From contig CANNAM010000001.1 in assembly GCA_947502595.1 (NCBI GenBank), positions 1-64,000 on the forward strand: a stretch of DNA of 64,000 bases, given 5' to 3'. This DNA is from an uncultured Marinicella sp. Lineage in GTDB: Bacteria > Pseudomonadota > Gammaproteobacteria > Xanthomonadales > Marinicellaceae. This document shows, piece by piece, positions 13,143 through 20,514 of this stretch (position 1 is its first letter; every line of letters begins with the position of its first letter). The notes beneath the pieces are model-generated. The model was not told the DNA's origin. It searched no databases and saw only the letters and a list, made by a program, of their open reading frames with translations. The position numbers were made by a program, and so were the translations under genes.

Positions 13143-15590
13143 TTAAAAAGGCAGCTCTAAGCTGTCACTGACTGCCAGTAACTGTGTACGGAAATCATCT
13201 TTGATGCGCTCCAGTGATTGTTCATCTTCGGCATCAAAACGAATGACCAAGCACGGCGTAGTGTTAGAACATCTGACCAAACCCCAACCATAAGCAAAAT
13301 CAGCCCTGATACCGTCTATGGTGGTGATTTTAGCATCTGGAAATTCTGCTCTTTTCAAGAATTCTTCCATGAACATATAATGCTCACCTTCTTGCATGTG
13401 TACTTTCAGCTCAGGGGTGTTGATGCTGTTAGGTAAGGTGTCAAAAACTTCTTGTGGCGTGCCTTTTTCTTGGTCTAATATTTCTAACAGCCTGGCTGCG
13501 GCATAAATGCCATCATCAAACCCAAACCAACGTTCATTAAAAAAGAAGTGACCGCTCATTTCACCTGCCAGTGCGGCATTGGTTTCTTTGAGCTTTGCTT
13601 TCATGAAAGAATGGCCGGTTTTCCACATGATTGGCATGCCTCCATATTTCACAATGGTCTTAGGCAAGTGGCCAGTGCATTTCACATCAAAAATAATGCT
13701 GGAACCAGGCTGCCTGCTTAACACGTCTTTGGCAAATAACATCAGCAAACGATCGGGGTTAATGATTTCACCCGATTTAGTCACCACCCCTAAACGGTCG
13801 CCATCACCATCAAAAGCAATACCTATATCGGCATCCACAGACTTCAGGGTGCTGATTAAATCTTGTAAGTTTTCTGGTACGCTAGGATCTGGGTGGTGGT
13901 TAGGGAAGTTACCATCAACTTCACAATGCAATGGAATCACATTGCAGCCAATTTCTTCAAGTACTTCTGGTCCAAGTATGCCTGGAATACCGTTGCCGCA
14001 ATCAACCACTACAGTTGGTTCATTTTCCAGCTGAATTTCGGAGCTGATGCAGTCTACGTAATCATCAGCAATATCCAGCTCTTGTACTGAACCTTGGCCA
14101 TGCAACAAATCACCATTGGCAATCATGTCATATAAATCAGTAATTAATTTACCGGCCAGCGTTTCACCGTCCAACATAATTTTTAAGCCGTTGTAATTGG
14201 CCGGGTTGTGGCTGCCGGTCAACATCACCCCGGAGCCTGTCTCTAAGTGATGAGTAGAGAAGTAAAGCACACCAGTTGGGACTGCGCCAATGTTGATGAC
14301 ATCACAGCCACTGCGGGTTATACCGTTGATCAGCGCTTCCAGTAAACTGGGTCCAGACAAGCGGCCATCTCTTGCCACTACGATGGTCTTGCGCCCTCGG
14401 TTAAGGTTTTCTGAGCCAATGGCGTGACCTATTTGTTCAACTGCATCAATGGTTAAGGTGTCGTCAACTATGCCTCTGATGTCATAGGCTTTAAAAATTG
14501 ATTTATCGGGTAATTTACTTGGGGCTTTTTTATCAGTTAAGGCCTGTGGATCTTTTTGTTGCCCATCTATATTACTCAGGTCACCAATGGCTTTCTTGGT
14601 AGGTTGGTGAACATATACATTTTGTTCTTTAGGTCTGGCTTTTCGGGCTTGCAGCTGAACAATCCTTTGTTGTCTTTTGATGAAAGTCAGGACTGCCAAA
14701 ATCAAGGCGGCCATAAAAGCCACCGCGCTGCTAAAAAATGACAGTTTAAATAAGCCGCTGTAACCTTTCTCTACCGCATAAGTGACGTAAAAATTAGAGT
14801 TAGGTACACTGGTTTGTTCATAACTTGAAGCGGCACTTTGGTTCACTGCGCCCCATTTTTGTAGTTCGATATTACTGTAAGTACCCGACTGTTGGGTCAA
14901 CACCAACTCACTTTTGTCAAACCTCAGGTGTTGTGGTTTTATGATTAAGTCAACAGGGTAACTGACCACCACATAAGCATGATCTGGTTTTTGTATGTAT
15001 ACAAAATTGAGGTATTGGTTGCTTTGTCCGTACAAATGGATTTCAGGCCACTGTTCTTGTTGGGTTTCGCTGGTCTTGCGCAGCATATCCAAGGTGGCGA
15101 AATTTATGCCAGGAAACACGGTATTAGGTTCAATGTCATCGACTGGCTCGATCACCCTCAGTATACGCAGCGTGTTATCCACTTCTTTTTCAATTAATTC
15201 TACAATGTTTTCTGCGTCTGGGTTTTCTGCAATGATGCCGGCTGCCAATAACCTCACTTGTTCAGTGCTTTGTTGAACGGATTGAGCCAACTCCTTGCTT
15301 TGTTGTTTAAGCTCTGACAGTGCTCGTGATTCAAAAAAGTTGAACTTCAATAAATAACCAAACAACAAACAAGCCAGTACGGCAGCAGCAAAGAAACTGG
15401 TCCACAGTAATTCATCTGAAAGTTTTACCGTGGTTTTCGTGGTTTCAGTGCCATTTTGTTTGGCGGCTTGGTCTGAGGATGTGCTACTTGTTTTATCCTC
15501 ATTCTTAGGGTTTTCGGTGTTTACCTCACCTTCGTCTGATTTTTTTGTTAGACGGTTTTTTAAATCAGAAAATAAGTTGTTCAAATCCAT
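13143..15590 (-). CDS. algC: Phosphomannomutase/phosphoglucomutase AlgC with membrane-anchored N-terminal domain
   Basis: Interconverts hexose 1- and 6-phosphates for LPS and exopolysaccharide precursors. The C-terminal catalytic part (about residues 364-815) has the phosphoserine loop T-G-S-H-N-P (Ser460), the Mg loop D-G-D-G-D-R (594-599), the sugar-binding G-E-M-S-G-H (676-681) and the phosphate-binding R-C-S-N-T-T-P. The N-terminal 360 residues are an acidic, low-complexity start, a membrane segment (60-82), an extracytoplasmic region of about 200 residues and a second segment (about 280-304). Long AlgC forms of this kind occur in several gammaproteobacteria, so this is not a frameshift fusion. 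It begins right after dut, an arrangement shared with Pseudomonas. Confidence 0.93.
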   Translation of the reverse strand: MDLNNLFSDLKNRLTKKSDEGEVNTENPKNEDKTSSTSSDQAAKQNGTETTKTTVKLSDELLWTSFFAAAVLACLLFGYLLKFNFFESRALSELKQQSKELAQSVQQSTEQVRLLAAGIIAENPDAENIVELIEKEVDNTLRILRVIEPVDDIEPNTVFPGINFATLDMLRKTSETQQEQWPEIHLYGQSNQYLNFVYIQKPDHAYVVVSYPVDLIIKPQHLRFDKSELVLTQQSGTYSNIELQKWGAVNQSAASSYEQTSVPNSNFYVTYAVEKGYSGLFKLSFFSSAVAFMAALILAVLTFIKRQQRIVQLQARKARPKEQNVYVHQPTKKAIGDLSNIDGQQKDPQALTDKKAPSKLPDKSIFKAYDIRGIVDDTLTIDAVEQIGHAIGSENLNRGRKTIVVARDGRLSGPSLLEALINGITRSGCDVINIGAVPTGVLYFSTHHLETGSGVMLTGSHNPANYNGLKIMLDGETLAGKLITDLYDMIANGDLLHGQGSVQELDIADDYVDCISSEIQLENEPTVVVDCGNGIPGILGPEVLEEIGCNVIPLHCEVDGNFPNHHPDPSVPENLQDLISTLKSVDADIGIAFDGDGDRLGVVTKSGEIINPDRLLMLFAKDVLSRQPGSSIIFDVKCTGHLPKTIVKYGGMPIMWKTGHSFMKAKLKETNAALAGEMSGHFFFNERWFGFDDGIYAAARLLEILDQEKGTPQEVFDTLPNSINTPELKVHMQEGEHYMFMEEFLKRAEFPDAKITTIDGIRADFAYGWGLVRCSNTTPCLVIRFDAEDEQSLERIKDDFRTQLLAVSDSLELPF

Positions 15591-16045
15591 TATTTAACCC
15601 CTGTGTGCCCGAAACCACCTTCGCCTCGAGATGTATCTGTGAATGATTCAACTTGGTTAAAGTTTACTTGTGCAACGGGTATCACAACCAATTGAGCAAG
15701 TCTGGCACCACGTTCCATAGTATAGGAGGTGTCCGAACGGTTCCAACATGAAACAAACAACTGCCCTTGGTAGTCGGCATCAATCAAGCCCACCAAATTA
15801 CCCAAAACAATGCCGTGTTTATGACCCATACCAGAGCGTGGCAAGATGATTGCCGCCAATTGAGGGTCTTGAATGTGTATGGCGATGCCAGTGGGGATTA
15901 ATTGGGTTTGGCCGGGTTCGATGCTTAAGGTTGAGTCAATGCATGCCCTCAAATCCAAGCCTGCAGAACCTGCGGTGCTGTATTGTGGTAAGCCGAATTC
16001 TGCTATGAATTCAGGGTCCATTATTTTTAAGTCTACAGTTTGCAT
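15590..16045 (-). CDS. dut: Deoxyuridine 5'-triphosphate nucleotidohydrolase (dUTPase)
   Basis: Hydrolyses dUTP to dUMP and pyrophosphate, keeping uracil out of DNA and supplying dTMP synthesis. The trimeric dUTPase motifs are present in order: [24 protein letters not shown], and the C-terminal [10 protein letters not shown] that closes over the active site. The start is ambiguous: ATG at 16045 ([11 protein letters not shown]) aligns with the family, but in-frame ATG codons at 16057/16054 and GTG at 16063 are possible and no start has a strong ribosome-binding site. Its stop shares a base with the algC start. Confidence 0.95.
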
Positions 16046-16112
16046 CAAAAACATCATATTCACGTGAGCATAGATTTTAAACCACCTGCCATAAAATCGC
16101 CAATGTTATGCT

Positions 16113-16132
16113 TTCTTACACAGAAGTAAGAA
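16113..16132. promoter_or_regulatory. Palindrome TTCTTAC-N6-GTAAGAA between dut and radC
   Basis: Two exact 7-bp arms, spacer ACAGAA, midway between the divergent dut and radC starts (60-70 bases from each). The same arms and spacer length recur upstream of gpmA at 20241-20260. Probable operator for an unidentified dimeric regulator. Confidence 0.6.
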
Positions 16133-16192
16133 TAGATAGACAGCTATTTGGATGACTAATGGTTAATATAAACATTTTTTGTCACAAAATAT

Positions 16193-16888
16193 ATGCCAAA
16201 TCAAATGATTGAGTCTACCCATGGTGCTTTATTTATCAATGCCATGCCACGTGAGAAGTTGGTGAATTTTGGCGCAGAGACACTGACAGACGCTGAATTG
16301 TTGGCGATTTTTCTGCGCATTGGTGTAGCTGGTAAAAGCGCCATTGAATTGGCTGAAGATATGTTGCTGCACTTTGGCGGGGTTAAACAAGTGATCAGCG
16401 CGTCATTGCATGAGTTTTGTGAAATCAAAGGTTTAGGTTTGGCTAAGTTTGCGCAATTTCAAGCGGCCAGTGAGTTGGTTAAACGGGCCATCAATCAAGG
16501 CTTCAACGCCCAAACCTGTTTCACAGAGCCTGCAGTGGTAGAACAATTTCTATTGGCTAACTTTGAACATTCAATGCATGAAAGGTTTGCCGGTCTGTTT
16601 TTGAACAGTAAGAATCACCTGATTAAGTTTGAATATTTGTTCAATGGCAGCATAAATTCAGCGCAAGTTTATCCGCGTACGGTAGCCCAATACTGTTTGA
16701 AGCACAATGCAGCCGCAGTGATATTTGCACATAACCACCCGTCAGGAGACACCCAGCCCAGTGAATCTGATATTACATTGACATTGCAACTGAAGAAGAC
16801 ATTGGCGTTGATTGACGTTAAAGTTTTAGACCATTTTGTGGTCGGTACCAACCAAACATTTTCTATGGCCAGTCATCAAATGATATGA
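16193..16888 (+). CDS. radC: RadC family JAMM/MPN-domain protein
   Basis: 231 residues. An N-terminal helix-hairpin-helix-like region (P-R-E-K-L ... L-T-D-A-E-L-L-A-I-F-L-R-I-G) is followed by the MPN+ domain with the metal-binding H-N-H-P-S-G-D ... S-x-S-D near residues 182-195. Despite the name, a direct role in repair is not established for the family. It is divergent from dut, sharing the palindrome at 16113. Confidence 0.94.
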   Translation: MPNQMIESTHGALFINAMPREKLVNFGAETLTDAELLAIFLRIGVAGKSAIELAEDMLLHFGGVKQVISASLHEFCEIKGLGLAKFAQFQAASELVKRAINQGFNAQTCFTEPAVVEQFLLANFEHSMHERFAGLFLNSKNHLIKFEYLFNGSINSAQVYPRTVAQYCLKHNAAAVIFAHNHPSGDTQPSESDITLTLQLKKTLALIDVKVLDHFVVGTNQTFSMASHQMI

Positions 16889-16944
16889 TTTTTTGCTCAT
16901 TATTTGTTAAGCTAGGATGCAGTTAACAAAGCAGATAATAAACT

Positions 16945-17484
16945 GTGTTTGGAAATAGATTAAATCCAGTTGCCCGAGCTGAAAAATACATAGATAAAGG
17001 TAACTATAAAAAGGCCATGAAAATCTTGGCCAATACCTTTAAAAAATATCCCAACAGTCTGGATTTGGCTCGTCTGCGCTTTGAATATGGCAAATACATT
17101 CCATTTGACGATTTTCATCACCAAGCAGCCATTGATTATTTCAATTTACAGTTACAGTTCGATGTTTCCGGTGAAAAAATTCACAGTGATTTTGTGAAGT
17201 ATATGACCACCACACAAGGCAGGATTCAATTAGATGACCCTACGCTGGTCAAGCTTTCAGTGGTCTTTGCTGCCAATGGCTTTGAAAACAACGCAGTGTA
17301 TATCATCAATTCTATGGTCAGAAAAGAATGTGAGTTGCCAGAATTTGTTGATTCTTTGGTGGCAATCATTAATTACCTGGAAGAAAAAGGTGCCGATAAG
17401 AAAACCGCCAGTTATAAAAACTACCTTAAATGGCACTATCCAGATCATGAAATGACGCATTACATTCTGGGTAAAAAGAATTAA
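16945..17484 (+). CDS. Small TPR-like hypothetical protein
   Basis: 179 residues, GTG start (MFGNRLNPVARAEKYIDKGNYKKAMKIL). The A-E-K-Y-I-D-K-G-N-Y-K-K-A-M-K-I-L segment is a clear tetratricopeptide-like helix pair; the rest is helical and charged without catalytic motifs. No signal peptide. Probably cytoplasmic and protein-binding. It is convergent with dxs and lies 56 bases after radC. I do not recognise the family. Confidence 0.7.
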   Translation: MFGNRLNPVARAEKYIDKGNYKKAMKILANTFKKYPNSLDLARLRFEYGKYIPFDDFHHQAAIDYFNLQLQFDVSGEKIHSDFVKYMTTTQGRIQLDDPTLVKLSVVFAANGFENNAVYIINSMVRKECELPEFVDSLVAIINYLEEKGADKKTASYKNYLKWHYPDHEMTHYILGKKN

Positions 17485-17520
17485 AAGTTCACTGGCTTAA
17501 GCCTTTTCTGCAGTTCAGCA

Positions 17521-19422
17521 TCATATCGAATACACCTTTGAGCCTTTTTGTTGTTTAATGAAATTGTTGATGGTTAGCAACATTTTATCGGTACTCAAAC
17601 CAGCTTCGTCTAACAACTCTTCTCTTGATCCGTGGTCTTGGAAGCTGTCAGGCAATCCCAAGTTCAGCACCGGTGATGTGATTTTCAGCGCATGCAATAT
17701 TTCATTCACAAAACTCCCGGCACCGCCTTGAATGACGTTGTCTTCAATGGTGACTATGTGGCTGTGGGTGCGGGCAATTTTTTCAATCATTTTGCGGTCA
17801 ATGGGTTTAATGAATCGCATATTGATTAACGTGGCATCAAGCTCTTCAGCGACCAACATTGCTTCACTTAATAAGGCGCCAAATGAAAGTATGGCCACCA
17901 CTTTGGCACCTTTTCTGACGCGTTCGGCTTGGCCAATTGTCAATGCTTGCATTTTGGGCAATATAGCAGAACCAGGGCCTTTACCTCTGGGGTAGCGCAC
18001 CGCCACAGGGCCTGCATGTTGGTAGCCCGTATACAACATTTGGCGACATTCGTTTTCATTGGCAGGAGCCATGATGGTCATATTGGGTACGCATCGCAAA
18101 AAGCTCAAATCTAAGTTGCCTGCGTGGGTAGCACCATCAGGCCCAACCACGCCGCCACGATCGATGGCAAACAACACATCCAGATTTTGAATGGCTACAT
18201 CGTGAATCAGTTGATCGTATGCACGTTGTAAAAAAGATGAGTAAATGGCCACCACTGGTTTGGCCCCTTCACAAGCCATACCAGCAGCCAGAGTCACGGC
18301 ATGTTGTTCTGCGATGCCCACATCAAAGTACCGTTTAGGAAACAATTTAGAGAACTCAACCAGACCGGAACCTTCGCGCATGGCAGGGGTGATGCCGACC
18401 AGGTTTTTATCAATCCGCGCCATATCACAAAGCCATTGGCCAAACACTTCGGTGTAACTGGGGGTAGAAGGTTTGTTTTTGCTTTGAATGCCTTCACTTG
18501 GGTTGAACTTGCCCACTGCATGGTATTTTATTGGGTCTTCTTCAGCTGGTTTATAACCTTTGCCTTTTTTGGTGATGATGTGCAGCAGTTTCGGGCCTTT
18601 GATTTCTTTGGCAACTTCCAGTGTTGCTACCAGTTGGTTGACATCATGGCCATCGATTGGTCCGAGGTGATGAAAGCCCAATTCTTCAAATAAGGTGTTG
18701 GGTACAAACATGCCTTTGGTGTGTTCTTCCCAGCGCGACATGAATTTCCACAGCCAAGAGCCTCGACGCATGATGCGTTTAGATTTTTCACGCATGCGGT
18801 TGTAAGTTCTGCCGCTGACAATTTTAATCAACATGCGTGACAAGGCACCTACATTGGGTGAAATAGACATCTCATTTTCATTCAGTACCACCAGCATATT
18901 GGTGTCCAATTCGCCGCCGTGATTCAAAGCTTCATAAGCCATTCCAGCAGTCATGGCACCATCACCAATGACTGCCACCACTTCACGTTCAGTACCGGTT
19001 ATTTGGCTGCCCAGTGACATGCCCAATGCGGCACCAATCGAAGTGGATGAATGACCCACGCCGAACGTATCGTATTCACTTTCGGTGCGCTTAGGAAATG
19101 GTGCCAGACCGCCTTTTTGTTTGATGGTGGTGAGGCGATTCTTGCGACCCGTCAAAATCTTGTGTGGGTATGCTTGGTGACCAACATCCCAAACGATGCG
19201 ATCATGTGGAGTCTGAAACACATAATGCAAAGCCACTGTCAGCTCAACTGTCCCCAGTCCTGAGCCAAAATGTCCACCGCTTTGTGAGACCTGTTCGATT
19301 AAATAAGCGCGCAATTCATCAGCAGCCTGGGTCAGCTGTGATTTGTCTAGTTGTCTTAAGTCGGCTGGTATATTGATTTGGTCTAACAAAGGGTATTCGG
19401 TGTTCATGATTGACTCGCTCAT
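17521..19422 (-). CDS. dxs: 1-deoxy-D-xylulose-5-phosphate synthase
   Basis: First enzyme of the MEP isoprenoid pathway: thiamine-diphosphate-dependent condensation of pyruvate with glyceraldehyde 3-phosphate. The 633 residues carry V-G-H-Q-A-Y-P-H-K (about 80), the ThDP/Mg motif [15 protein letters not shown] and the transketolase pyrimidine-domain block [15 protein letters not shown]. An alternative start is Met6. It follows gpmA by 18 bases on the same strand, so both are probably one transcript; phosphoglycerate mutase and DXS both sit around the triose/pyruvate node. Confidence 0.97.
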
Positions 19423-19440
19423 TGTGCTATAAGTCGGGCG

Positions 19441-20190
19441 TTAACCCTGTGCTTTACCTTGTTTTTCCACCGCGGCCATGGCGGCAGTTAATGCTTGTTC
19501 ATCACCGAGGTAATAACTTTTAATTGGCTTCAGTTGATCATCAAGTTCATAAACCAATGGCACACCCGTAGGGATGTTCAGTTTAAGAATTTCAGTCTCA
19601 GAAACATCGTCTAAATACTGTACCAACGCCCGCAGAGAATTGCCGTGAGCGGTGATGATGATGCGTTTGCCGGCTTGCAAATCTGGCACTATGTTTGCAT
19701 GCCAATAGGGCAACACCCGTGCAACGGTGTCTTTCAAGCATTCACCCAGTGGTATTTGTTCTTTGCTCAGTGCCTGGTAACGTCGGTCATTGGCAATGTT
19801 GCGTTCATCATCCCAATCAAGCTTAGGCGGTGGAGTGGCATAACTGCGGCGCCAAATGTGGACTTGTTCATCACCATATTTGGCGGCTGTTTCAGCTTTA
19901 TTAAGACCTTGAAGCGCGCCATAATGGCGTTCGTTCAAGCGCCAACTGCGATTCACTGGTAGCCATGATTGATCCATCACGTCGGCAGCAATGTTATAGG
20001 TTTTGATTGCCCGCTTTAAAACGGAAGTATAGGCTTGGTCAAATTCAAAGCCAGAATCACGCAAAAGCTGGCCTGCTGACTGTGCTTGCTTGACACCATT
20101 TTCAGTCAAATCAACATCTTTCCAGCCCGTGAAGCGGTTGGCTAAATTCCACTCACTTTCGCCATGTCTTAATAACACCAATTTAATCAT
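19441..20190 (-). CDS. gpmA: 2,3-bisphosphoglycerate-dependent phosphoglycerate mutase
   Basis: Interconverts 3- and 2-phosphoglycerate in glycolysis. The phosphohistidine motif [10 protein letters not shown] is at residues 7-16, followed by [12 protein letters not shown] and the second active-site histidine in [11 protein letters not shown]. 249 residues, full length. First gene of a gpmA-dxs unit; a TATAAT box (20223-20218) and a palindrome over the -35 region lie upstream. Confidence 0.97.
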
Positions 20191-20217
20191 ATTGAATTTT
20201 TTAATTTGAACGCTTGA

Positions 20218-20223
20218 ATTATA
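20218..20223 (-). promoter_or_regulatory. Probable -10 box of gpmA-dxs
   Basis: A perfect TATAAT on the minus strand, 28 bases before the gpmA ATG. At 17 bases upstream the -35 position falls inside the TTCTTAC-N6-GTAAGAA palindrome and has little consensus of its own. Confidence 0.5.
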
Positions 20224-20240
20224 TCACGGGTGTCTATGTT

Positions 20241-20260
20241 TTCTTACAAGTGAGTAAGAA
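20241..20260. promoter_or_regulatory. Palindrome TTCTTAC-N6-GTAAGAA upstream of gpmA
   Basis: Second exact copy of the arms seen at 16113-16132, with spacer AAGTGA. It covers the expected -35 element of the gpmA promoter and lies 83 bases before the small gene at 20344. Confidence 0.6.
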
Positions 20261-20343
20261 TATTGCGGTGGTTTAAGGACTGGATTAAATTTAAACTGTA
20301 TAGTCAATACAGCGCTGATGCTGAATGACAGTAGGAATGACTG

Positions 20344-20514
20344 ATGAATCAAATTGAACTGCAAAAAATTATGTATGAAATAGAAGCCATTATCAACCAA
20401 TTGGCTGAGTGCAATTACTGCAAGCATGGCATTGGCCGTGAAAGTAAAAAGCTGCTCAGTGAATTATTTAAGCTGAAAATCGAGCAGGCCTGCCAAATCA
20501 AACAAGTCAGTTAA
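20344..20514 (+). CDS. Small 56-residue protein with C-x2-C
   Basis: The frame MNQIELQKIMYEI... ends at a TAA at 20512. TAGGA lies seven bases before the ATG, a good ribosome-binding site. The predicted product is two amphipathic helices joined by a turn containing C-N-Y-C-K-H-G-I-G, and a third Cys near the C terminus. A metal- or thiol-binding helical hairpin is possible but unproven. It converges on the SLC13 gene with a 4-base overlap. Confidence 0.5.
   Translation: MNQIELQKIMYEIEAIINQLAECNYCKHGIGRESKKLLSELFKLKIEQACQIKQVS

Follow-up and report, generated by a model that had tools for sequence, protein, structure and literature searches.

GacA systems are often taken to work exclusively, or almost so, by way of small RNAs, as in the title of a 2009 paper on Pseudomonas aeruginosa. 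The GacA/UvrY/SirA box, TGTAAGN6CTTACA, has been described at the csrB, csrC and rsm small RNAs (PMC4682653, PMC8523701). In Escherichia coli, csrB carries this box plus a TGTAGGAGA half-site 5 bp downstream, and in chromatin immunoprecipitation (ChIP)-exo analysis no other UvrY target came close to csrB and csrC in strength (PMC4682653). GacA-type sites have also been proposed or reported at protein genes, such as a box at csrA1 of Marinomonas (PMC8523701), the site of TzpA at vfmE in Dickeya (PMC12724241) and the protein genes among the GacA ChIP-seq targets of P. aeruginosa (PMC6610081). Here we describe an element, TTCYTACA-N6-TMRGAA, that recurs at promoters of the genus Marinicella and was noticed as a pair of palindromes in a 64,000-nucleotide (nt) stretch of DNA from an uncultured Marinicella sp. 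(contig CANNAM010000001.1, positions 1 to 64,000; hereafter, the window). The element is a real regulatory element and, judging from its sequence context, probably belongs to composite operators through which a GacA-type regulator activates radC, an open reading frame (ORF) of 56 amino acids (aa), comM, IS200-like transposase genes, small-protein genes and a small RNA.

The palindrome TTCTTAC-N6-GTAAGAA, to which no strand is assigned, was found by sequence search in the window at 16113..16132, in the dut-radC gap (spacer ACAGAA), and at 20241..20260 (spacer AAGTGA). The preliminary description of the window had reported two exact copies with differing 6-base spacers, no further copy in the window and none inside a gene. 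All of this was borne out, both palindromes lying outside every long ORF called. Under a first-order Markov model the window would hold about 0.0001 exact copies, and no other 7-bp arms recur there at equal spacing (spacings 0–12 tested). A scan of the whole genome (3,235,424 bases), which that description had called for, returned these two exact copies only; the form relaxed to two mismatches was at chance level (12 places; reversed pattern, 15), and up to three mismatches gave 4 matches in the window against 2.15 expected. The exact copies are thus real, but the relaxed counts speak against the strict palindrome as the motif: both copies are part of a wider, mostly asymmetric element, TTCYTACA-N6-TMRGAA, and it is this form that is enriched in the genus. 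Searched as TTCYTACANNNNNNTMRGAA, this element gave 51 matches at 48 distinct places in 18 Marinicella genomes, compared with 3 for the reversed-pattern control. By our reading of the neighbouring ORFs and the promoter sequence, 45 of the 48 places could be assigned to recurring promoter classes: radC/dut (10 places), a small RNA upstream of lpxL (9), an IS200-like transposase (MTVARKQQIC...; 7), relics of that transposase promoter without an intact gene, judged as such by the common promoter sequence (4), another Y1-type transposase (1), comM (6), the 56-aa ORF (5) and a second small-protein operon (3). The 3 others include two places within genes.

Orthologous promoters were compared, as the preliminary description had suggested. 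In 12 of the 18 genus genomes the dut-radC gap holds a site that departs from the palindrome at no more than two positions, and in five of those 12 both arms are altered together, from TTCTTAC/GTAAGAA to TTCCTAC/GTAGGAA. A -10 matrix, built like its background on general sigma-70 frequencies, was applied at each of 65 offsets to 46 promoters from six classes, and the scores were averaged by class. Out of 140 sites within two mismatches, the 85 unlabelled ones were set aside; nine of the 55 with a class label were dropped (L037, a chance site; L109, a shifted duplicate; L074, a duplicated half; and L036, L039 and L041–L044, which belong to radC of another genus). The score peaked at exactly 31 nt past the element (3.1 bits, positive in all six classes), the next best offset scoring −2.6, with a mean of −5.4 (standard deviation, 1.7). 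Because both arms change together and the spacing to the -10 hexamer is fixed, the element is best understood as a protein-binding site at promoters, in agreement with the original proposal. The symmetric arm changes alone would fit an RNA hairpin just as well, but in the six classes scored the predicted -10 comes downstream of the element, and many of its right arms (TCAGAA) pair incompletely with the left arm. A chance repeat, in turn, is contradicted by counts far above the control, and we regard a hairpin or a chance repeat as extremely improbable.

With the -10 hexamer at −12 to −7, the centre of the 20-mer falls near −53.5. TGTC-A (positions −9 to −4) and C-ACAG (positions 26–31) are conserved in the profile too. 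We interpret the element as the place where two 18-bp Gac-box-like inverted repeats (profile positions −9 to 8 and 13–30) meet back to back. Relative to the predicted start, their centres would be at about −64.5 and −42.5, a distance of 22 bp. A position of −42.5 is usual for an activator that contacts RNA polymerase. The palindrome would then occupy the middle of a composite operator with two boxes, TGTnnn-N6-CYTACA and nGTMRG-N6-nnnACA, each bound by a dimer of a phosphorylated GacA-type regulator, and the bound dimers would activate a promoter having a -10 but no conserved -35. A GacA-type regulator is proposed because the GacA/UvrY box, a response-regulator site, has the same half-site, CYTACA/TGTARG; the preliminary description had suggested looking for a TetR-, GntR- or MarR-type gene instead. 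The operator and its spacing appear identical at a CsrB/RsmZ-like small RNA, radC, comM, the IS200-like transposase and the small-protein genes; a common operator at the small RNA and at protein genes would mean that GacA acts on protein genes directly as well as via the small RNA.

Among the nine element-bearing small-RNA promoters, six (G000, G003, G007, G009, G012 and G016) contain an exact Gac box, TGTARG-N6-CYTACA; elsewhere one half-site varies. The small RNA, of about 155–220 nt and with a terminator at its end, lies between the element promoter and lpxL (Pfam PF03279); at locus L006 it is GGA-rich and spans about 1563-1766 (G000:C3:5920-6127). In the nine stretches, which extend to lpxL, GGA occurs 9, 11, 3, 10, 8, 9, 9, 6 and 3 times, compared with 4.9, 5.2, 2.7, 3.5, 3.7, 4.6, 4.6, 3.5 and 2.9 expected, and is thus raised in seven and unraised in two. 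A consensus fold of seven sequences showed compensatory change in 20 of its 48 pairs, with GGA in the loop of the second hairpin in 6/7 and AGGA in the third hairpin in 3/7. With many GGA motifs, GGA in a hairpin loop and a Rho-independent terminator, the RNA looks like a CsrA sponge of the CsrB/RsmZ type; csrA was not seen in the sequence examined, no search of the genomes having been aimed at it. A covariance model (E up to 0.01) detected the RNA in 16 of the 18 genus and 21 of the 33 family genomes, several of the matches being weak or partial. Six genomes used neither for the motif nor for the covariance model (G001, G002, G005, G008, G011 and G017) keep a related double box at the small-RNA promoter, followed after 31 nt (after 32 nt in G017) by CATAAT or GATAAT; the promoter of G010 is degenerate. 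None of the nine small-RNA loci matched Rfam at the gathering level, the best weak matches being mir-299 and suhB/mmgR (26.0 bits; gathering, 41), and the RNA is a candidate for a new CsrB/RsmZ-like family. Downstream of lpxL, L006 also contains a strong hairpin (2701-2753), each strand of which gives a weak Rfam match to an unrelated microRNA family; it is probably a terminator.

The genome encodes four GerE-type (LuxR-type helix-turn-helix) proteins at E up to 0.001. For one of them, L147 (G000:C5:89304-89960), UvrY/SirA/GacA is the best family by over 100 bits; it shares 51% identity with E. coli K-12 UvrY over 217 residues, and its recognition helix, KTVATYKYR, resembles KTVNSYRYR of UvrY. 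L147 is the only one of the four with KTVxxY at the recognition helix, a pattern also found in UvrY and EvgA. At E up to 1e-30 a GacA homologue is present in 30 of the 33 family genomes, among them every one of the 18 in the genus, the exceptions being G018, G025 and G032; in 7 of these 30 the recognition helix was compared by eye. L147 would thus be the regulator bound at the two boxes. The element might instead be the operator of another transcription factor, either a different response regulator or a dedicated activator, with a half-site that is merely Gac-like and the small RNA as one more target. The emrK-evgA/evgS region of E. coli holds a similar pair, TTCTTAC-N4-GTAGGAT, which we take to be the EvgA site. 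The LuxR-type regulator QstR controls comM in Vibrio (PMC6237807); other LuxR-type regulators can therefore use such sites or genes, and our survey of transcription factors covered the GerE family only. On the other hand, KTVxxY is missing from the recognition helix of the genome's three other GerE proteins, and the element stands at a CsrB/RsmZ-like small RNA, a classic GacA target, with exact Gac boxes in six genomes. We therefore consider another factor unlikely and favour the GacA-type regulator.

At the first window site, the predicted boxes, placed from the sequence and the profile, are ATGTTA-N6-CTTACA at 16103..16120 (+ strand), with a poor outer half-site and a centre at about −64.5, and AGTAAG-N6-TAGACA at 16125..16142 (+), with a centre at about −42.5. 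The -10 hexamer indicated by the sequence and the offset peak, TAATAT (16164..16169, +), is 31 nt past the element, and radC follows at 16193..16888 (+; NCBIfam RadC family, 243.4 bits, cut-off 180). On the other side lies an ORF at 15590..16021 (−), which from its sequence we take to be dut. Its -10-like hexamer, TAAAAT (16074..16079, −), is 33 rather than 31 nt from the element and is accompanied by what may be its own -35, TTGGCG (16098-16103, −); dut was on these grounds rejected as an equal target, and its control by the element is doubtful.

The second palindrome had been assigned to the promoter of gpmA-dxs, a target that the comparison of relatives did not support. Its putative boxes, TGTCTA-N6-CTTACA (20231..20248, +) and AGTAAG-N6-GCGGTG (20253..20270, +; poor outer half-site), and a predicted -10, TAAACT (20292..20297, +; again 31 nt past the element), precede a 56-aa ORF at 20344..20514 (+), unlisted in the preliminary description, that matched nothing in Pfam at E up to 0.1. 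ORFs resembling it, 56–68 aa long, lie downstream of the element in relatives, and where the site is present it mostly reads TTCYTACA or TTCYTACC followed by GTCAGAA. The distance from the element to the small ORF (to the ATG of the aligned MN start) is 66–83 nt in G000, G001, G005, G009, G014 and G016, whereas that to gpmA, a divergent ORF at 19441..20190 (−; name as first given), varies from 50 to 150 nt, gpmA being some 900 bp off in G005; the second site therefore follows the small ORF. By eye, gpmA probably has its own -10, TATAAT, at 20218-20223 (−), and a TATAAT-like hexamer is common to gpmA upstream regions, including those without the site.

Allowing one mismatch in the genome of the window adds comM (L005) and three transposase genes (L108–L110), with two further matches within genes. 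The IS200-like transposase gene has several copies and relics in this genome (L004, L108, L109, L110 and L010), with the element ahead of each, and the regulator's site therefore appears to travel with the gene. When tested as a REP-associated tyrosine transposase (RAYT), L110 scored below the cut-offs of NCBIfam (40.7 bits; cut-off, 80) and Pfam Y1_Tnp (22.6; cut-off, 23), and the family is therefore named IS200-like or RAYT-like here. Since transposase genes or relics of the transposase promoter account for 12 of the 48 places, the element might be a transposase recognition or end sequence that arrived with such genes and was scattered. Yet the radC, comM, small-RNA and small-ORF sites keep their place and their -10 spacing among relatives, with no adjoining transposase called, so that we judge a mobile-element origin very unlikely and retain the operator. 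In the second small-protein class, two consecutive ORFs at L003 (1635-1853 and 1886-2125; 72 and 79 aa) lie downstream of the element and have relatives in L073 and L107; neither matched any family above its cut-off.

Several observations weigh against GacA-type operators. Neither window site matches the Gac box within two mismatches, and each has good inner half-sites only. For the exact Gac box alone, enrichment in the genus is slight: it has 16 places, spread over 9 of the 18 genomes, against 9 places for the control. Seven of the 16 are inside ORFs, six are the small-RNA promoters upstream of lpxL, two are transposase-remnant-like and one, on G000:C32, is unassigned. The one-mismatch total for the element in its own genome is unenriched (15 rows; control, 13), and the promoters are homologous within each class, leaving about six that are independent. 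The dut-radC site is absent from 4 of the 18 genus genomes (G001, G002, G008 and G011, which are four of the six held-out genomes mentioned above) and by eye degenerate in 2 (G010 and G015), and the covariance model did not find the small RNA in 2 of the 18 (G014 and G015). The score of L147, 275.8 bits, is below the NCBIfam cut-off of 280. Finally, the UvrY site of E. coli lies near −183 (PMC4682653), compared with predicted centres near −64.5 and −42.5 here.

Scans beyond the genus give only a hint that the element is used outside the family. TTCCTACAN6TCRGAA gave 7 matches in 274 genomes of the class, equal to the 7 of the control, with no adjoining comM- or transposase-like ORF called. TTTCCTACAN6TCGG was found at 21 places in 200 genomes of the order, against 7 control matches. 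Of the 21, one each stands upstream of comM (L133), of an IS200-like transposase (L120) and of a 169-aa ORF (L131), one is the Marinicella small ORF (L121) and one falls between a recA-like and another ORF (L135); most of the remaining places are within long ORFs. Inspection by eye showed no good -10 at 31 nt for either L133 or L120. A scan of named genomes with one strong form yielded four loci, in a Lysobacterales metagenome-assembled genome (the L131 site), in Marinicella (the L121 site) and in two unrelated groups. As separate observations, TGTAAG-N6-CCTACA occurs near the end of a 497-aa ORF in two genomes (L161, ~1115; L163, ~1501), which is probably coding-sequence conservation, and the window contains an 815-aa ORF at 13143-15590 (−) with a long N-terminal extension, the C-terminal part of which is presumably phosphomannomutase/phosphoglucomutase-like.

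It is possible, although we put this forward tentatively, that GacA directly switches on the ComM helicase, RadC, IS200-like transposases and conserved small proteins, and thereby the handling of incoming or single-stranded DNA, in addition to the small RNA. If so, GacA activity would make the cell permissive for DNA recombination and transposition, and one promoter geometry at comM, radC and the transposases would give a sequence-defined direct regulon that ties the GacA switch to DNA recombination. Such a set of direct targets would be unusual for a GacA-type operator. Among the matches listed in literature searches on GacA with comM, transformation or RAYT, no title placed Gac boxes at comM, radC or transposases, and among those listed for the motif letters TTCCTACA there was no relevant paper. 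By analogy, there may be a link to natural transformation, given the association of comM and radC with competence elsewhere (PMC6237807) and the finding that LetA, the Legionella homologue of GacA, is needed for transformation (PMC7811196); the operators may bear on why it is needed.

Among other LuxR-type regulators, the EvgA site shares the orientation of the half-sites, and EvgA a similar recognition helix, but its spacer is 4 rather than 6 and EvgA is 28% identical to L147 over the alignment; an EvgA-type site was rejected because of the spacer. QstR of Vibrio cholerae regulates comM and has ChIP peaks near radC, although radC itself was not significantly induced in that study, and its binding site is reported as unknown (PMC6237807); QstR was set aside as a site match. 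BvgA was likewise dropped, its site being described, in the part of the literature available, as heptad repeats without letters. Direct control of protein genes by a GacA-type regulator would be common to Marinicella and to the Marinomonas, Dickeya and P. aeruginosa cases; the genes differ, and comM, radC and transposases are not named in the available portions of those reports. The Marinicella boxes would stand back to back as at E. coli csrB, where the arrangement has one base more. Compared with the GacA/UvrY box, the half-site TGTARG/CYTACA is the same and a box stands at a GGA-rich small RNA in both, whereas in Marinicella there would be two boxes, often with one poor half-site each, and the predicted targets include radC, comM and transposase genes.

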